22,861 nucleotides of DNA from a virus, in the IMG/VR virus record IMGVR_UViG_3300005264_000088, positions 1-22,861 of that record; one strand, given 5' to 3'. Positions 12,907 to 20,474 of the stretch are shown here, piece after piece. Each line of letters starts with the position of its first letter. The stretch's first letter is position 1. The position numbers were made by a program, and so were the translations under genes. The notes under the pieces are model-generated. The model was not told where the DNA came from. It saw only the letters and a list, made by a program, of their open reading frames with translations, and did no database searches.

Positions 12907-12910
12907 CACT

Positions 12911-12926
12911 TATACAAAATTGTATA
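12911..12926. promoter_or_regulatory. repressor operator, copy near the replication gene
   Basis: TATACAAAATTGTATA has perfect 7-bp arms around AA. Aligned with the two other operator-promoters, its right arm falls on a -10-like TATAAG on the minus strand, with a degenerate -35 (TATTAA). This suggests a weak promoter for the replication gene under repressor control. Confidence 0.6.
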
Positions 12927-12931
12927 GTTAG

Positions 12932-13135
12932 TTAATAAAAAAAATCATTGATTTTAATTCCAGTTACTTCTGAAATTATTTTAATCTGATTACCATTAAA
13001 AGTTATATTCCCTTTTTTTAGGTTTTTTAAATGATGATAGAAGTTTTGCTTAGTAATTCCTAGACTATTGTAAATTTTTGTATATTTAATTTTTTTATCA
13101 TTTTTAATTTTTTCTAATTTGTAATATCCATTCAT
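12932..13135 (-). CDS. small Cro-like HTH DNA-binding protein
   Basis: The protein has 67 residues from the ATG at 13135, 8 nt after AGAGG. A GTG at 13144 is in frame but lies within that ribosome binding site. The core KYTKIYNSLGITKQNFYHHLKNLKKGNITFNGNQIKIISEVTGI is an XRE-type helix-turn-helix (helix 2 'YNSLGIT', recognition helix 'KQNFYHHLKNL', then the 'l..ia...gi....f' end). It is driven by a strong leftward promoter with a repressor operator in its spacer. This is the place of a Cro protein, although it lies 5 kb from the CI-type gene because the accessory cassette stands between them. It probably binds the same operators to allow lytic growth. Confidence 0.76.
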   Translation of the reverse strand: MNGYYKLEKIKNDKKIKYTKIYNSLGITKQNFYHHLKNLKKGNITFNGNQIKIISEVTGIKINDFFY

Positions 13136-13155
13136 AGTAAGCACCTCTTGAAACG

Positions 13156-13184
13156 ATTATACTCAATTGTATAATTAAAGTCAA
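13156..13184 (-). promoter_or_regulatory. leftward early promoter with operator in the spacer
   Basis: On the minus strand, -35 TTGACT (13184-13179), a 17-bp spacer and -10 TATAAT (13161-13156) form a near-consensus sigma-70 promoter. The operator TATACTCAATTGTATA (13158-13173 on the plus strand) overlaps the spacer and -10. The promoter is nearly identical to the rightward one at 18814. It would drive the Cro-like gene and possibly those beyond. Confidence 0.85.
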
Positions 13185-13201: not shown

Positions 13202-13243
13202 AAAAAAGCAGTAGCAATTTTTTCTATTACTACTACTTTTTTT
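13202..13243 (-). terminator. Rho-independent terminator after the accessory cassette
   Basis: A 16-bp stem (13202-13217 with 13227-13242) is fully paired on the minus strand, allowing two G-U pairs, but has two A-C mismatches on the plus strand, so it acts on minus-strand transcripts. The final stem bases give the T-run. It would end transcripts from the subtilase gene and shield the Cro-like gene's promoter from read-through. Confidence 0.8.
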
Positions 13244-13280
13244 ATTAAATATGTTTTTTATTAAATATGTTTACTATTAT

Positions 13281-13367
13281 TACCCCCCTTAGTTTGAAGG
13301 TATTCAAACAGAATACCCTCAATCAGAAGGCATTCAATTTGAACCCCCTCAAAACAGAAGGGTTCAA
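13281..13367. repeat. three tandem 30-bp-period stem-loop repeats
   Basis: Three 27-bp units (13281-13307, 13311-13337, 13341-13367), each separated by 3 nt, share the layout arm, CCCTCAA-like, AGAAGG, arm, TTCAA. The arm bases change in step: GAACC/GGTTC in one, GAATACC/GGCATTC in the next, TACC/GGTA in the third. The first unit also has GTTTGAA/TTCAAAC. They lie in the 3' untranslated part of the subtilase transcript, before its terminator. They could be RNA hairpins, or binding sites for a protein. Confidence 0.65.
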
Positions 13368-13405
13368 AAAAGCTTGAATTTATTGAGGGTAAAAGATTTT
13401 TTATT

Positions 13406-15670
13406 TTATAAAACATCTATTTTATTTTCTATATTTATTTCTAAATTAACAGGGTTATATTCTTCTATTTCTAATTCGTTTGTCAATGCTAAATTTAATT
13501 CATCATTCTTAGACTTTATTGTAATAAAAACACAATAATCTAAAAATAAATCTTCTTTAGGAGTGATGTTTTCAATATAATTGTTATATTCTGGTGTCAA
13601 TGTTAAATACCATTTTTTATTCTTAATCACTGCATTTTTTTTTGCATTTTGCAGAGTAGAAAGGTTAACAGAATATTTTTTTAAAGGAGAATATTTACCA
13701 TTTTTTCTTAGTGCTTCTTCTGTATTAGATTTAACTATTCTTTTTGAAAAATTATTTTCTAACAATAAATTTATGGGATTTTTCGTTCCTATTGCATATT
13801 TAGCTCTTGGATTTGTTAGAGTTCTATCTCTTTTTTCACTATAGGTACCAAAAGCAACTTTTAGATCAGTTTGAGAATATTCTAACCCTTGATTTTTTAT
13901 TAATATAGGATCAACTATAGAAGTTAAAATAATCTCTCCTGATAGTTCTCCTAATTCATCAATTAATTCTTCTGGGAAAGGGATATCTAAACTTCCTATA
14001 CTTTCTCCTTTAGGGATACTTCCGTTAAAAATCATTGTTATCTCATTATCAGCATCGTGTAATATTTCATCTATTTTAGGTGGAACCCCATGACCATATT
14101 TGAATCTAATATTTTCTTCTTCTTCCATCATTTCTTCTAAATATGAAGACTTATGGACTAATAATCCTTTGATAAACATAGGGCTAAAGGGTTCCTTGAT
14201 TTTTTTTGCTAAATGAGCTGCTATTGCAGATATTTGAGGTGTAGAAAAACTTGTCCCAGCATTTTGAATTTCTTCTCCATTAGTATCTATGACTACGATC
14301 CCAGCAGCATTTTTAGTTTTTTTGCAAACACTTCCTCCGTAATAAACTAAATCAGGTTTAACTGTATTATATGGTCCAGGACCAACTTTACTAAAAGAAG
14401 ATACTTTATTTTTTACTGCTGTATTTATAGTTGTATGGTTAATTGATCCAACTGTCAAGGCTCTTAAACTTTCTGCCCCACAATTAATTGAACTATTTAA
14501 ATGATTAGTACAGTTTCCTGATGATTTTACAAATAATACATTATATTTTTTTTGTAAAAAATCTAAGTTCATGGCAAAAGAAGAAAACTTATCTTTAGAA
14601 ATCTTAGTTTTGGAACCCAAAGAGAGGTTCCATATCTGAGCTTTATTGCTATATTTTTTTAAAGAATTTTCTAAATTAATTAGAATTTCAGCTTCACTAG
14701 TAATTTTTTCTATCATCGCAACACAACTAATAATTTGACATCCTTCTACTCCGAGATTCAAGCTGTTTAATTGCTCACCAAAACATACTAAGCTACTTAC
14801 TTGTGTTCCATGATTATCATTTATGTCGTCTAATATATATGGCGAATATTGTCTTTTACACCAATTTTTTATAACATCTTGGTTTACTCCAGAATCAAAA
14901 ACTCCAACTAATGGATATTCTTTAGTTGGATCTATTTCAGGAACAGAAGGAACATCAAAAAAATCTATTTTAAAATCATCTCCAAAATCAAAGGTAAGCA
15001 TTTCTTCTACTGATTCAACAAAGGGCATTTTTTCTAATTCACTAAAAAAATCTATATCCTGATCATTAATTGCTTCATATATAATTTCATTATTAGGATA
15101 TTTAATTTTTTTTATATGAACATTTTCTAATTTTTCAAATAACAGTCTTTCCTCTCTTTCATTGAGTTTTTCATCATGAAAATCTACTAATTTAATTTTT
15201 AATTTTTGTATATTCATTAAATTTTTATCTATTTCCATTTTATATGTTTTGATATCATCTATTGCAGCGACAATAGTTTCTTTATTTTTAGATTTAGCTA
15301 GCCTATTTGATATAGTATCAGTATTTTTAGCATCTATTGAATAAAGAAGTCTATTATCGCCTTTTAAAGCGACTATCTTACTTAGATCTTTATCTATGAA
15401 TATTTCATTAATACTATCTCTATAACTTTTGGCTTTAGCTCTTGGGTTGATAATGGCTTCTACTATAATTGGAAATTCTTCGTACTCTAAACTTCTTTTC
15501 TTTACTTCATCTTTTAGAATTCCTGTGTTTTTTATTAAAAATTCAAATTTTTCGTCAGTATAATTTTCTTGTATCCATTTAGGAATATCATCGTTTCCTC
15601 CGCCTTCTATTCCTCTAAAATCTTTTTCTTTTCTAAATGTAACCTTTTTAATTAAGTTTTTCTTCCCCAT
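13406..15670 (-). CDS. ietS: subtilisin-like serine protease, IetS-type
   Basis: A 754-residue S8-family peptidase without a signal peptide, so cytoplasmic. The catalytic triad is Asp259 (VGVFDSG), His287 (DNHGTQVSS) and Ser474 (AGTSFSTP), with oxyanion Asn386 (SSGN). A roughly 245-residue N-terminal extension has PIIVEAIINPRAKAKSYR and helical parts, and a 250-residue C-terminal extension is of unknown fold. An AAA-ATPase gene overlaps its start by 23 nt. This ATPase-plus-subtilase pair matches the IetAS system, first described as a plasmid stability/incompatibility locus and later as antiphage. It probably cleaves a target when released by the ATPase or by an infection signal. The ATG at 15670 follows AAGGAG. 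The pair's class is well supported; the substrate is unknown. Confidence 0.85.
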   Translation of the reverse strand: MGKKNLIKKVTFRKEKDFRGIEGGGNDDIPKWIQENYTDEKFEFLIKNTGILKDEVKKRSLEYEEFPIIVEAIINPRAKAKSYRDSINEIFIDKDLSKIVALKGDNRLLYSIDAKNTDTISNRLAKSKNKETIVAAIDDIKTYKMEIDKNLMNIQKLKIKLVDFHDEKLNEREERLLFEKLENVHIKKIKYPNNEIIYEAINDQDIDFFSELEKMPFVESVEEMLTFDFGDDFKIDFFDVPSVPEIDPTKEYPLVGVFDSGVNQDVIKNWCKRQYSPYILDDINDNHGTQVSSLVCFGEQLNSLNLGVEGCQIISCVAMIEKITSEAEILINLENSLKKYSNKAQIWNLSLGSKTKISKDKFSSFAMNLDFLQKKYNVLFVKSSGNCTNHLNSSINCGAESLRALTVGSINHTTINTAVKNKVSSFSKVGPGPYNTVKPDLVYYGGSVCKKTKNAAGIVVIDTNGEEIQNAGTSFSTPQISAIAAHLAKKIKEPFSPMFIKGLLVHKSSYLEEMMEEEENIRFKYGHGVPPKIDEILHDADNEITMIFNGSIPKGESIGSLDIPFPEELIDELGELSGEIILTSIVDPILIKNQGLEYSQTDLKVAFGTYSEKRDRTLTNPRAKYAIGTKNPINLLLENNFSKRIVKSNTEEALRKNGKYSPLKKYSVNLSTLQNAKKNAVIKNKKWYLTLTPEYNNYIENITPKEDLFLDYCVFITIKSKNDELNLALTNELEIEEYNPVNLEINIENKIDVL

Positions 15671-16754
15671 GATTACTCCTTTTTAATTCATTATCGATTT
15701 GTCTTAAAGAAATATTTAAATGGCTAGCAATATCACTTCTACTTACTTTTCTATAATTAAGAAAGTGAATTAACGATTCTTGGCCTCTTTGGTAATTAAA
15801 ATGATAAAATTCATTTAAAATATCAGAATAAGATATAGATTCTTTTCCTGCTAGTAAACAATTTCTTATTGTAGAAACAACTATTTTTTTTATTTCTGAA
15901 GGACTTTCTTTAAAAATTAGTTTTTCAAAAACTAATTTTTTAGATGGTGTTATTTTAAAAGAAAAATTAAACTTTTCAAGCTCTTTAGTAAAAATTTTAT
16001 ATTTTGTTTCAACAGAGATTATATCAGTATTAATAATAGTACTAAACCTTCTCCAAATAGCAGGATCTAGTAATTTTTCGTGATTAGTTGCTGCTAATAA
16101 AATATTATTTTTAGTAAATAAATCAATATTTTGTAATAAACTATTTACAACTCTTTTTAATTCTCCTAATTCTTTGGAGTCATCTCTTAATTTTGCAATA
16201 GCATCAAACTCATCAAGAAATAATATACATGGTTTACTATTCGCATATTCAAAAACTTTTCTAATATTTTTGGCTGTATTTCCTAATAAAGATGAAATAA
16301 CTGCATCTAATTTTACTGTAACTAGAGGTAAGTTTATTTTTTTAGCTATTAAATGAGCTATTGCTGTTTTTCCAGTTCCTGGTTGACCATGTAATAACAA
16401 AGAATAAGGAAGATCTAAATTATGTCTTTTTAGTTCTTCTTTTTTTTCTATTCCTAAAATAAAATTATCTATTTGCTGTTTTTGATAGGTTTCTAATATT
16501 AAACCTTTGTGATAGTTTGAATCTATAGTCACTTCTACCATTTCTAAACTACTGTCTTTATCTTTAGGCTTAGTCATAAATGAATCAAAATGCACTGGAT
16601 GAATTGAGTTGTTGTTTAATATTCTATTTATTTCTTTAGAAAATTTTAAATCTTCATCTGCTATATTTTCAGATAATAATTTACTATAATTTTTTACTCT
16701 AATATGATCTTTTTTTAGTCCTGCTTCAATTATTTTTAATATTTCTGTCTTCAT
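15648..16754 (-). CDS. ietA: AAA-family ATPase, IetA-type
   Basis: A 368-residue protein with a central AAA+ domain: Walker A GQPGTGKT (123-130), Walker B ILFLDEFD (D181/E182), sensor 1 AATN (N224) and arginine finger region PAIWRRF (R235/R236). This is the classic, FtsH/spastin-like set, suggesting a hexameric ATPase. The N-terminal 90 residues are helical and the C-terminal tail has an HTH-like SRSDIASHLNISLRQIDNELKR. It pairs with the overlapping subtilase gene as in IetAS, where both proteins are needed. It may hold the protease in check and recognise phage or plasmid cues. The ATG at 16754 follows GGAGGA. A 17-bp direct repeat with a -10-like core lies upstream. Confidence 0.85.
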   Translation of the reverse strand: MKTEILKIIEAGLKKDHIRVKNYSKLLSENIADEDLKFSKEINRILNNNSIHPVHFDSFMTKPKDKDSSLEMVEVTIDSNYHKGLILETYQKQQIDNFILGIEKKEELKRHNLDLPYSLLLHGQPGTGKTAIAHLIAKKINLPLVTVKLDAVISSLLGNTAKNIRKVFEYANSKPCILFLDEFDAIAKLRDDSKELGELKRVVNSLLQNIDLFTKNNILLAATNHEKLLDPAIWRRFSTIINTDIISVETKYKIFTKELEKFNFSFKITPSKKLVFEKLIFKESPSEIKKIVVSTIRNCLLAGKESISYSDILNEFYHFNYQRGQESLIHFLNYRKVSRSDIASHLNISLRQIDNELKRSNHGEEKLN

Positions 16755-16766
16755 TGCTTTCCTCCG

Positions 16767-16845
16767 AAATTATAACGTTTTTCAATATAATTATATCATT
16801 TTCAGAGAAAAAAATACAGTTTTTTAAAAAATTATAACGTTTTTC
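16767..16845. repeat. 17-bp direct repeat upstream of ietA
   Basis: AAATTATAACGTTTTTC occurs at 16767-16783 and again at 16829-16845, 62 bp apart. On the minus strand each contains TATAAT preceded by AACGT, so each could be a -10 element, with no good -35. The first sits at the ribosome binding site of ietA; the second covers the end of the 139-aa gene. Possibly two sites for an autoregulator or a promoter duplication. Confidence 0.45.
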
Positions 16846-17251
16846 GAGATAAAGTATTAAGAAGGCCTAAAGAATAGTTTTGCCTGATAAAGCTATTTAA
16901 TTCATTAAATAAATCTTCTTTTGAATTTATAGTAGCTGTATAATTTTTATCTTCAAGAGAACTATTAAATATTATTGGATAACCTCCTAAATAATAATAT
17001 TCAATATAAAGCATATTAACTCTATAATTTCTTAAATGTGGAGCACTAACATAATAATTTATTCTAGCATCATATTTAGAAACTTCGGGAGTTTCTAACA
17101 GAATAACTTCTTCATAAAATTCTAATTTTTTAAATACTCCTTTTAAATGAAAAGATAATTTTTTCAAAATTTCTTTAATTTCTTTTTCTATATCTTCTTT
17201 GACTTTAAGGTCTTTTAAGTTGATTTCATCAAATGTCATTGTTTTTTCCAT
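16832..17251 (-). CDS. unknown 139-aa protein in the defence-like cassette
   Basis: I do not recognise a family. The 139-residue protein has a charged helical N-terminus (LKDLKVKEDIEKEIKEILKKLSFHLKGVFKKLEF), then a strand-rich aromatic part (EEVILLETPEVSKYDARINYYVSAPHLRNYRVNMLYIEYYYLGGYPIIFNSS), then a helical tail. No cysteine, metal site or membrane segment is seen. It starts with ATG 17251 after GAGAGGTGG, 13 nt past the stop of the EEP nuclease gene, so the two are probably one transcript and may act together. It ends 77 nt before ietA. It could be an immunity or sensor partner for the nuclease, but that is guesswork. Confidence 0.65.
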   Translation of the reverse strand: MEKTMTFDEINLKDLKVKEDIEKEIKEILKKLSFHLKGVFKKLEFYEEVILLETPEVSKYDARINYYVSAPHLRNYRVNMLYIEYYYLGGYPIIFNSSLEDKNYTATINSKEDLFNELNSFIRQNYSLGLLNTLSRKTL

Positions 17252-17264
17252 ATTTCCACCTCTC

Positions 17265-18038
17265 TTAATTAAAAACTATACTTATAGGCATATGATCGCT
17301 AATCTTAGGCTTATATCCTTTATCTAGTAAATGATTAGTTTCTAATTCTACTATTTTAAAATTTTTTTTATCAAATAAACTCACAAGACTTTTTGTCATA
17401 ATAACCTGATCTAAAAGGTGCCAAGATCTCCCAAACCAATGACTCCCTAGAGTAATCTGATCAAAATTTCCTAATAAATGATAACTAGGGTTGTAGTATA
17501 GATTTCTTTCTCTACCTTGATTTGTTATAATGCTACTTCCTAAAGCACAATTAGAAACTTTAAATGACATTAAATCTTCAAATTCATGAGGATTTAAATT
17601 AAAATCACCTATAAATATAATGTCTTCTGTATTCCTATCTTTTTTTAAAGTGTCTAATTTTTGTTCTAACATATCAAATATACTATTAATAGACTCTACT
17701 TGACCTGGTGAGACTTTACTTGGCAAGTGAACAGGAACTATAAGAAAATTTCTGATTTCATCATTTAAGAAAATCTCAATTTCTTTTATCATATATCTCT
17801 TATCTTCTTCTACATCAAAACTTTCAAATAATTTATATTTAAAAAAATATCTTAATTCTTTAGACTGTCCTTTTACTTTGATTTCAACTTTATTAAGCTC
17901 TTTAAATTCAAATTTTACTGGGAGAACTATTTGTTCACCTTCTGCTAGAATTAATATATCAGGGTCTTCCTGATTTATTAATTCTTCTATATGAATACTT
18001 AAATCTTTACTCTGAGTATTCCAAAATAAAATTTTAAT
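17265..18038 (-). CDS. endonuclease/exonuclease/phosphatase-fold (EEP) protein with apparent ATT start
   Basis: The full frame gives 257 residues. A short version from the first ATG (17792) would lose two catalytic motifs. Residues in order: ILFWNT with metal-coordinating Asn7, DILILAEGE with Glu33, VPVHLPS with His104, IIFIGDFN with Asp145/Asn147, HLLDQV with Asp210, and the ISDHMPI ending with Asp248/His249. That is the complete EEP signature, so it likely cleaves phosphodiester bonds in DNA, RNA or a small molecule. No ATG, GTG or TTG fits; ATT at 18038 lies 6 nt after AAGGAGG and gives the family-like N-terminus 'MKILFWNT'. It stands 48 nt after the repressor gene and is followed by the 139-aa gene. 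Confidence 0.78.
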   Translation of the reverse strand: MKILFWNTQSKDLSIHIEELINQEDPDILILAEGEQIVLPVKFEFKELNKVEIKVKGQSKELRYFFKYKLFESFDVEEDKRYMIKEIEIFLNDEIRNFLIVPVHLPSKVSPGQVESINSIFDMLEQKLDTLKKDRNTEDIIFIGDFNLNPHEFEDLMSFKVSNCALGSSIITNQGRERNLYYNPSYHLLGNFDQITLGSHWFGRSWHLLDQVIMTKSLVSLFDKKNFKIVELETNHLLDKGYKPKISDHMPISIVFN

Positions 18039-18086: not shown

Positions 18087-18746
18087 CTAATGATTAAAAA
18101 CTCCTACTTTTTTTCCTACGATATAAAATTCATCGGATTCATTTATTATGATAGGATCATAATCTTTGTTATCACTGGATAATATTATATCTCCACGATC
18201 TGTTTTTTTATATCTTTTTAATAAGCCTTCATCATTTAAAATGAATGCTCCAACTTCTCCATTTTCAGGCATTACTTCTTTTTTTATAAGAACTGTATCA
18301 CCGTTTTTGATATCAGGGTGCATAGAATTACCATCTACCTTAATACCTATTACATCTCCCCTAAATCCATTTGTTTGTGGGAGAGGCATATGTCCAATGA
18401 TACCACTTTTGCAACTTCCAAAACCTGCCGAAATAGAATCATAAATAGGAATCTGTTTAAATTCAGTAATTGGATTATTTAAATCTATATTCCCTACTTT
18501 TATTTTTCTCATTTTTTCAGGTATTTTTTCATTTTCAACCATTGCTATTATTTCTTGCTGTTCTTCTGTTGGAATTGAAAATTCATTGAAAAATTTCTCT
18601 AAAAATTTATAAGAGGGTAACCTTTTCCCTGTTTTATAGTGACTTATGGATGACAAAGAGACTTTCATTACTGTAGAAATATAGTCTAATGTATATTCAT
18701 TTTTTATCATAAATTCATTCAAATATTCTTTGAATTTTATTTCCAT
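18087..18746 (-). CDS. CI/LexA-type prophage repressor with S24 self-cleaving domain
   Basis: A 219-residue lysogeny repressor. The N-terminal XRE HTH (residues 8-55) has YTLDYISTVMKVSLSSISHYKTGKR. The C-terminal peptidase S24 domain has the Ala107-Gly108 cleavage site (DSISAGFG), nucleophile Ser141 (DGNSMHPDIKNGD) and Lys177 (LLKRYK), so RecA-stimulated self-cleavage and SOS induction are expected. The ATG at 18746 follows AAGGAG. It diverges from the plus-strand operon across a region with three operator-like palindromes. Downstream, 48 nt away and on the same strand, begins the accessory cassette, which could be co-transcribed in the lysogen. Confidence 0.94.
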   Translation of the reverse strand: MEIKFKEYLNEFMIKNEYTLDYISTVMKVSLSSISHYKTGKRLPSYKFLEKFFNEFSIPTEEQQEIIAMVENEKIPEKMRKIKVGNIDLNNPITEFKQIPIYDSISAGFGSCKSGIIGHMPLPQTNGFRGDVIGIKVDGNSMHPDIKNGDTVLIKKEVMPENGEVGAFILNDEGLLKRYKKTDRGDIILSSDNKDYDPIIINESDEFYIVGKKVGVFNH

Positions 18747-18929
18747 AATAGATACTCCTTTTTAGTTAATAATTTATTATATATTATTTTTATACAAAAA
18801 AGTAAAATAAGACTTGACTTTAGTTATACAAAGTTGTAAAGTTTATTAAAGAAGTTTTACAAAAATGTATAATCGATTAAAAAATAACATTATTATTTAA
18901 AATAAAATTTAATAAAAAGGGGGGGCATT
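18747..18929. promoter_or_regulatory. divergent control region between repressor and plus-strand operon
   Basis: The 183-bp gap contains operator-like sites TATACAAAAAAGTAAA (18791-18806, weak right arm), TATACAAAGTTGTAAA (18825-18840) and TTTACAAAAATGTATA (18856-18871). The last two start 31 bp apart, about three helical turns. The rightward promoter is described separately. A leftward promoter for the repressor is less clear; TATAAT at about 18775 on the minus strand is a possible -10. The arrangement is that of a lambda-like switch. Confidence 0.75.
18814..18842 (+). promoter_or_regulatory. rightward promoter of the par-int operon
   Basis: -35 TTGACT (18814-18819), 17-bp spacer, -10 TAAAGT (18837-18842). 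The spacer and -10 are covered by the operator at 18825-18840. The bases TTGACTTTAGTTATACAA are almost the same as in the leftward promoter at 13184 (minus strand), indicating a duplicated control element. Confidence 0.8.
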
Positions 18930-19587: not shown

Positions 19588-19758
19588 ATGAAAAAACAAA
19601 AATTAAGACCAAATCATCAAGAGATTATAGCTATGAGTTTAGAGGATTTAAACTTTATATTAAAAAGCCAATATGTGTTGACAAATAGGCAGACCAAACA
19701 AATTAAATCAGAAATTAAGAGAAAAAGAAGAATAACAGGGCAGAAGGTGATTGTCTAA
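19588..19758 (+). CDS. small basic protein (56 aa) before parA
   Basis: Starts at ATG 19588, 6 nt after AGGAGGG. An upstream in-frame ATG (19564) precedes that ribosome binding site and is rejected. The sequence is very basic (KKQKLRPNHQEIIAM near the start and TNRQTKQIKSEIKRKRRITGQK near the end) with a helical middle LEDLNFILKSQ. It may bind DNA. The stop TAA shares its final base with the ATG of parA, showing tight coupling, so it may be a small regulator of the partition operon. Confidence 0.62.
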   Translation: MKKQKLRPNHQEIIAMSLEDLNFILKSQYVLTNRQTKQIKSEIKRKRRITGQKVIV

Positions 19759-20474
19759 TGGCTAAAGTAATTTTATTTAAAAACAATAAAGGAGGGGTAG
19801 GGAAGTCATTATTATGCTTCTGGACTGCCCACATCCTTTCTACATTATCAAAAACAAGTGATGATAAGAAAAATAAAGTACTAATCCTTACATCTGATTC
19901 ACAAAATAATATCATGCAGATGGCAGGAACTAAATCAGGCTATGGTGATGGACTTCAAGGATATATTGATGGTAGAGGTTCAGATCTAATAAGATTAAGA
20001 GAAGGACTATTTTATGTTCCTTTGACATCTACTGGAATAAAAAGAACCTTTGAAACCAGGTTCCACGATGTAATAGAGGTTTTCAAAAAACAATATGACT
20101 ATATCCTTATAGATGGATCACCAGTATTAAAGTTAGATAATATCTTTCTGGAAGTCAGTGACAAAGTAGTTATACCTACTTTCCTTGATAATGTAACTAC
20201 TAAGGGAATGATCAATCTTATCAAAGAGGTAGGAGTGGATAGAGTGGCTATGATTGTTCCTAACAGAGTTGGAAAAAGTAAGATGGAACGAGAACATCTA
20301 AATAAATTAAAAAAGAGTCTGAGTGGTGTAGGAGCAACGATTACTAATCCAATTTATCAGACTACAAAAATTATGCAGCTTACAGAAAAATCAAAAACAA
20401 TTATGGAAACTAAAAGTAAACAATATTATGAGATAAAACAAATATTTGCAAAAATTGTAAAGGCTGTGATGTAG
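19758..20474 (+). CDS. parA: ParA-family partition ATPase
   Basis: A 238-residue ParA/Soj-type ATPase. It has the deviant Walker A KNNKGGVGKS (8-17) with signature Lys11 and Lys16, a Walker A' region DSQNNIMQM, and Walker B YDYILIDGSP. It lacks a long N-terminal HTH, so it is of the small ParA class. It would bind DNA non-specifically and move the ParB-parS complex, spreading copies of a low-copy plasmid. Stop and start of the next gene directly adjoin (TAG-ATG), typical for parAB. Presence in a phage genome with an integrase points to plasmid-like maintenance. ParA-like proteins can also have other roles, such as conjugation or positioning. Confidence 0.9.
   Translation: MAKVILFKNNKGGVGKSLLCFWTAHILSTLSKTSDDKKNKVLILTSDSQNNIMQMAGTKSGYGDGLQGYIDGRGSDLIRLREGLFYVPLTSTGIKRTFETRFHDVIEVFKKQYDYILIDGSPVLKLDNIFLEVSDKVVIPTFLDNVTTKGMINLIKEVGVDRVAMIVPNRVGKSKMEREHLNKLKKSLSGVGATITNPIYQTTKIMQLTEKSKTIMETKSKQYYEIKQIFAKIVKAVM

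Follow-up and report, generated by a model that had tools for sequence, protein, structure and literature searches.

Two putatively independent gene modules, an IetAS pair and an EEP nuclease-partner pair, as probable defence-type cargo beside the repressor of a temperate phage

Introduction

The four genes that directly follow the CI-type repressor gene of a temperate phage are probably two independent modules, an EEP nuclease with a small partner and an IetAS pair, carried as defence-type cargo in a repressor-linked slot. The phage is known from an IMG/VR virus record of 22,861 bases (G+C 28.5%), analysed over its full length and referred to here as the window. Terminase and other structural-type genes occupy the left side of the window, and ParA (19758-20474) and an integrase the right. 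The host is likely a Fusobacteriota lineage, because, among named phages, only Fusobacterium phage Funu1 has a relative of the 225-aa gene that adjoins ParA.

Layout of the Cassette

The EEP nuclease, a 139-aa protein, an AAA ATPase and a subtilase are encoded on the minus strand between positions 13406 and 18038, directly behind the CI-type gene, and both the coordinates and the gene order given in the original prediction, which was made from the DNA letters, were borne out. The features are as follows:

18087-18746, minus strand: CI-type repressor (HTH and S24 peptidase; Pfam Peptidase_S24 8.1e-23, PHROG transcriptional repressor 5.7e-33)
17265-18038, minus strand: EEP (DNase I/exonuclease III-like) nuclease, 257 aa, ATT start, recognised by a window-blind HMM
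16832-17251, minus strand: 139-aa partner protein, encoded by the second gene of the EEP-partner module, recognised by a window-blind HMM
16767-16790 and 16829-16852, minus strand: copies, 92% identical, of a 24-nt direct repeat, one on each side of the gap that separates IetA from the 139-aa gene
15648-16754, minus strand: IetA-type AAA+ ATPase, 368 aa (PADLOC PDLC02196, Pfam AAA)
13406-15670, minus strand: IetS-type subtilase, 754 aa, with Asp259, His287 and Ser474 (PADLOC PDLC02201, Pfam S8)
13280-13408, minus strand: strongly structured stretch following IetS, at the cassette's left end (-46.8 kcal/mol, z = -5.9, 0/200 shuffles as good)

The genes are closely packed, with 48 bp between CI and EEP, 13 bp between EEP and the 139-aa gene and 77 bp between the latter and IetA, while the reading frames of IetA and the subtilase overlap by 23 bp. 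The widest gap of the cassette and the direct repeat both fall exactly between the EEP-partner and IetAS genes; the repeat (16767-16852) is possibly a module junction, or else an operator or other regulatory site, and the 77-bp gap could hold a separate promoter for IetA. The G+C content of the cassette is 22-27%, compared with 31% for the structural genes.

The IetAS Pair

Sequence comparison identifies the ATPase and the subtilase as full-length IetA and IetS. The first matches PADLOC family PDLC02196 at 1.3e-117 over residues 1-361 and the second PDLC02201 at 4.2e-188 over residues 2-753, full length in both cases, so that the proposed equation of this ATPase-protease pair with IetAS stands. 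Pfam recognises the AAA domain of IetA (2.4e-32) and the S8 domain of IetS (1.8e-32); the C-terminus of IetA is helix-turn-helix-like, and HTH_23 scores 0.0018 on IetA, under its cut-off. IetA retains the Walker A lysine (Lys129) and the Walker B pair Asp181-Glu182, and the IetS triad D259, H287 and S474 is invariant. The active-site residues named beforehand (Lys129 of IetA, Ser474 of IetS and Asp145 of EEP) were all correct.

The known relatives of this pair are pTiC58 ietAS, SGI1 sgiAT and mycoplasma TA132/3 (IetA/IetS in PADLOC, IteA/IteS in NCBIfam), with which it shares the full length of both proteins, the gene order, the frame overlap and the catalytic residues. It differs from the reference system in being preceded by an unrelated two-gene module and in scoring below what NCBIfam requires of an equivalog (321.9 bits against a required 510, and 316.7 against 900), scores which argue for a distant IetAS subgroup and not an equivalog of the reference anti-phage pair. 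Tested pairs of this type, from SGI1 and mycoplasmas, behave as toxin (the protease) and antitoxin (the ATPase); stability and incompatibility come with the pTiC58 pair (PMC5006074, PMC8562856).

A six-sequence IetA alignment used as query retrieved 80 loci each from species genomes and viral contigs, which with plasmid and phage loci made a total of 165 loci with IetA. IetS lies directly downstream on the same strand in 157 of the 165, as it does in the window, and no gene upstream of IetA is constant across the surveyed loci. On an Enterococcus faecium plasmid, a second TIR gene was observed downstream of IetS, in addition to the one upstream of IetA described below.

The EEP-Partner Module

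Relatives of the first two genes were difficult to reach. Single-protein scans of viral contigs found no relatives of EEP, the 139-aa protein or IetA; scans of genome contigs and plasmids with EEP were equally empty, as were those of phage records with EEP and with the 139-aa protein. The first EEP relatives, five in number, were reached only by scanning viral contigs with the degenerate motif GDFNxNPxE. Each is directly followed by a gene of 125-178 aa, and three of the five followers match the 139-aa protein at 0.002-0.006. Further loci were added by alignment search and by a search of Bacteroidota genomes; the EEP and partner alignments comprise 12 and 13 sequences, respectively.

A partner homologue follows EEP in 11/11 full-length loci at a gap of -11 to +11 bp, next to which the window gap is 13 bp, and IetA is absent from every EEP-partner locus found outside the window. 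Profiles built with the window left out recover both of its proteins from 20,327 ORFs: that of 11 EEP relatives finds the window EEP at 2.5e-37 (next best 0.8), and that of 12 partners places the 139-aa protein best at 1.2e-5 (next 0.25), a statistically clear match to the partner family despite just 14-22% sequence identity. EEP and the 139-aa gene thus form a conserved two-gene module of their own, independent of IetA; that the two are so strictly adjacent points to regulation of the nuclease by the partner. The pair is rare, occurring under strict cut-offs in 4/395 Bacteroidota genomes and in 0/398 in each of two Bacillota draws. One EEP relative (locus L230) is also located directly behind an S24 repressor, and on a Bacteroidota chromosome (L250, 8298-9552) EEP is split by a frameshift next to an intact partner gene.

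PADLOC and NCBIfam have no family for either protein, nor does Pfam have one that the partner matches. A weak hit of the 139-aa protein to the Mycoplasma peptidase family DUF31 (Pfam 0.002) was discarded, since it lies under the cut-off and the partner family supersedes it. Structure prediction from single sequences performed poorly (mean pLDDT 53.8 and 38.7), and a fold search with the 139-aa model obtained in this way gave no meaningful match. No description of such an EEP pair was found in a limited literature library, and the pair is apparently undescribed.

The nuclease scores just under the Pfam gathering thresholds (25.4 of 27 for PF19580, 23.8 of 24.5 for PF03372), which some of its relatives pass. 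It shares with the EEP superfamily (exonuclease III, DNase I; PF03372, PF19580) the catalytic N, E, H, D, N, D, D-H pattern, and positions N7, E33, H104, D145, N147, D210, D248 and H249 do not vary across 12 sequences; we take their roles to be those of their counterparts in exonuclease III and DNase I. What sets the subfamily apart, besides its sub-cut-off scores, is a set of motifs of its own (GDFNxNPxE, YNP, DQV, SDHxP) and the small partner gene downstream. The pair also resembles two-gene toxin-antitoxin modules of mobile elements in combining a possibly harmful enzyme with a small partner gene and in its link to mobile elements, but the partner has no known family, the enzyme gene comes first, and toxicity of EEP is only possible. 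Whether phage defence or toxin-antitoxin, a new system that is rare, spread over several phyla and mobile in prophages, and in which the partner controls the enzyme, is a reading to which we give slightly less than an even chance.

The start of the EEP gene at 18038 needs an ATT codon, which is preceded by a ribosome-binding site (AAGGAGGAG) and sets an N-terminus that aligns with those of the relatives, most of which begin with ATG. ATT is a legal but inefficient bacterial start codon, and translation may be low or absent. The nuclease could accordingly have decayed in this phage through a change of ATG to ATT, leaving IetAS as the sole working module. The contrast with the ATG of most relatives speaks for such decay, but the ribosome-binding site, the remaining frame and every catalytic residue are intact, and an inefficient start would suit a harmful nuclease; we regard the loss of this module as decidedly unlikely.

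One System or Two

The original prediction left open whether the cassette holds two adjacent systems or an extended four-gene version of IetAS. The latter would be a single machine in which the protease activates or cuts the 139-aa protein and so releases the EEP nuclease. The four genes are indeed co-directional, with short gaps, in a single block behind CI, and elsewhere IetAS is at times immediately preceded by an effector-like gene, such as the TIR-domain gene upstream of IetA on the Enterococcus faecium plasmid (L002, 4119-4904). Against this, phmmer run without filters found no significant relative of EEP or the 139-aa protein in 166 IetAS-type loci, in a co-occurrence survey drawn from genomes other than those of Fusobacteriota, the likely host phylum. 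An HMM of 22 EEP proteins from IetAS-carrying genomes, which does recognise the window EEP, likewise detected no EEP gene in IetAS neighbourhoods. Since EEP-partner pairs elsewhere also lack IetA, and the largest gap and the direct repeat sit exactly at the module boundary, the extended system is very improbable.

The prediction that the nuclease and the 139-aa protein stand outside the two-gene IetAS system is upheld by the same 166 loci, and of its two alternatives that of two adjacent systems is favoured. Its expectation that the four genes would recur together failed in what was searched, a result that counts against a four-gene system only. As judged from gene content, the four genes are best described as two independent two-gene modules, a structure that corrects their reading as one system.

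An Exchangeable Slot Beside the Repressor

Six sister phages were found through ParA and/or the 151-aa gene that diverges from CI, and their left sides were then completed. In all six, CI is separated from the left replication-type genes by a variable block, reaching about 13 kb, with the following cargo:

L167: BRCT/HHH protein, DUF2806, DUF4062, PD-Lambda-5_A, ATPase
L168: AbiH, type III Mod with a long adjoining gene
L169: HsdM, HsdS, PD-Lambda-3-like protein
L179: ThsB, PDC-S20, DUF4062, others
L180: histidine-kinase-type ATPase and neighbour, no PADLOC match
L181: Avs1a, Avs1b (AVAST type 1)

Type I and type III restriction-modification and Thoeris-like genes are thus among the cargo, but neither IetAS nor the EEP pair occurs in any of the six. 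Because they hold other, mostly defence-type cargo in the same interval, the interval behind CI appears to be an exchangeable defence-cargo slot beside the repressor. Ten window proteins from outside the slot gave no match to PADLOC.

In lambdoid phages the interval behind cI has been described as a hotspot of mosaicism in which rexAB and bstA reside (PMC8585504), and in Pseudomonas putida a RexAB-type system has been reported behind a CI-like gene (PMC12894663). The slot is therefore an already described kind of place, found here in a new lineage, probably of Fusobacteriota. Like lambda rexBA and P22-like bstA, the cassette lies directly behind cI and is co-directional with it, and it has operator-like sites on both sides; the window proteins, however, are unrelated to those of rexBA and bstA, the cargo is larger and exchangeable, and the host is probably a member of Fusobacteriota.

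Operators and Transcription

The 18-bp palindrome-like operator motif TTATACAAAATTGTATAA has six matches in the window compared with 0.41 expected, a count reached by 0/100 shuffles. The sites and the signals near them are:

18790-18872, no strand assigned: three operator-like 18-mers (starts 18790, 18824 and 18855) in the stretch that separates CI from the divergent 151-aa gene, a putative right operator and maintenance promoter region
13156-13184, minus strand: putative left early promoter TTGACT-17-TATAAT (11-of-12 match), overlapping an operator-like site at 13157-13174
12910-12927, no strand assigned: fifth operator-like site, beyond a 70-aa HTH gene (12932-13144)

With operator-like sites on both sides of cI and its cargo, the cassette would lie between cI and the putative left operator, the position that rexBA occupies in lambda. 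A clear operator copy left of the cargo was not found in the six sister phages, which do have repeats upstream of CI. The 70-aa HTH gene left of the cassette is itself flanked by operator-like sites, one per side, and near it lies a tandem pair of the 16-nt unit TTTTTTATTAAATATG (13238-13269).

A general promoter scan returned 43 promoter-like matches against 41.6 expected, that is, the chance level. The terminator proposed behind IetS fared unevenly: the structured stretch described above lies at the right place, but a scan for intrinsic terminators after IetS found none. A search of Rfam gave no match. Since the cassette genes are co-directional behind cI, have no recognised terminator between them and end before the operator-controlled left promoter, both modules would probably be transcribed in the lysogen by read-through from the CI maintenance promoter.

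Possible Functions

In the proposed mechanism, the small cognate partner of the first module would restrain or direct the EEP nuclease until phage or another stress releases it, and in the second the AAA+ ATPase IetA would control the subtilase IetS, as in the related toxin-antitoxin pairs. From the position and the company of the cassette, the IetAS pair here would most likely act in superinfection defence, and possibly in prophage stability as well. The earlier description of the cassette as a superinfection-defence moron gains from the other, mostly defence-type cargo of the six sisters and from the rex-like position indicated by the operator-like sites, while expression in the lysogen and defence activity are what we infer.

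Alternatively, the modules could be addiction units of the toxin-antitoxin kind, which would stabilise the prophage or keep out incompatible elements and have no part in phage defence. The toxin-antitoxin behaviour of protease and ATPase in SGI1 and mycoplasmas, together with the stability and incompatibility conferred by the pTiC58 pair (PMC5006074, PMC8562856), is in keeping with this, as is the ParA of the phage. However, PADLOC-recognised genes occupy the slot in 6/7 phages (the six sisters and the window), restriction-modification and AVAST among them, and the integrase makes plasmid-like stability less needed. The two roles are, moreover, compatible with each other, and addiction to the exclusion of defence is unlikely.

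A repressor-linked exchangeable slot in a lineage remote from the lambdoid phages offers a place to look systematically for defence systems not yet known. It has so far yielded the nuclease-partner pair of the window, absent from PADLOC and NCBIfam, and the PADLOC-unrecognised genes of one sister (L180, 268-4514), where an 842-aa histidine-kinase-type ATPase and a 566-aa protein behind CI constitute a candidate defence pair. A near-identical C-terminal stretch (YHRKGC...SYPLKEAEALGYEAC) was also observed in the different cargo blocks of two other sisters (L167, 4163-4516; L179, 2724-3362).
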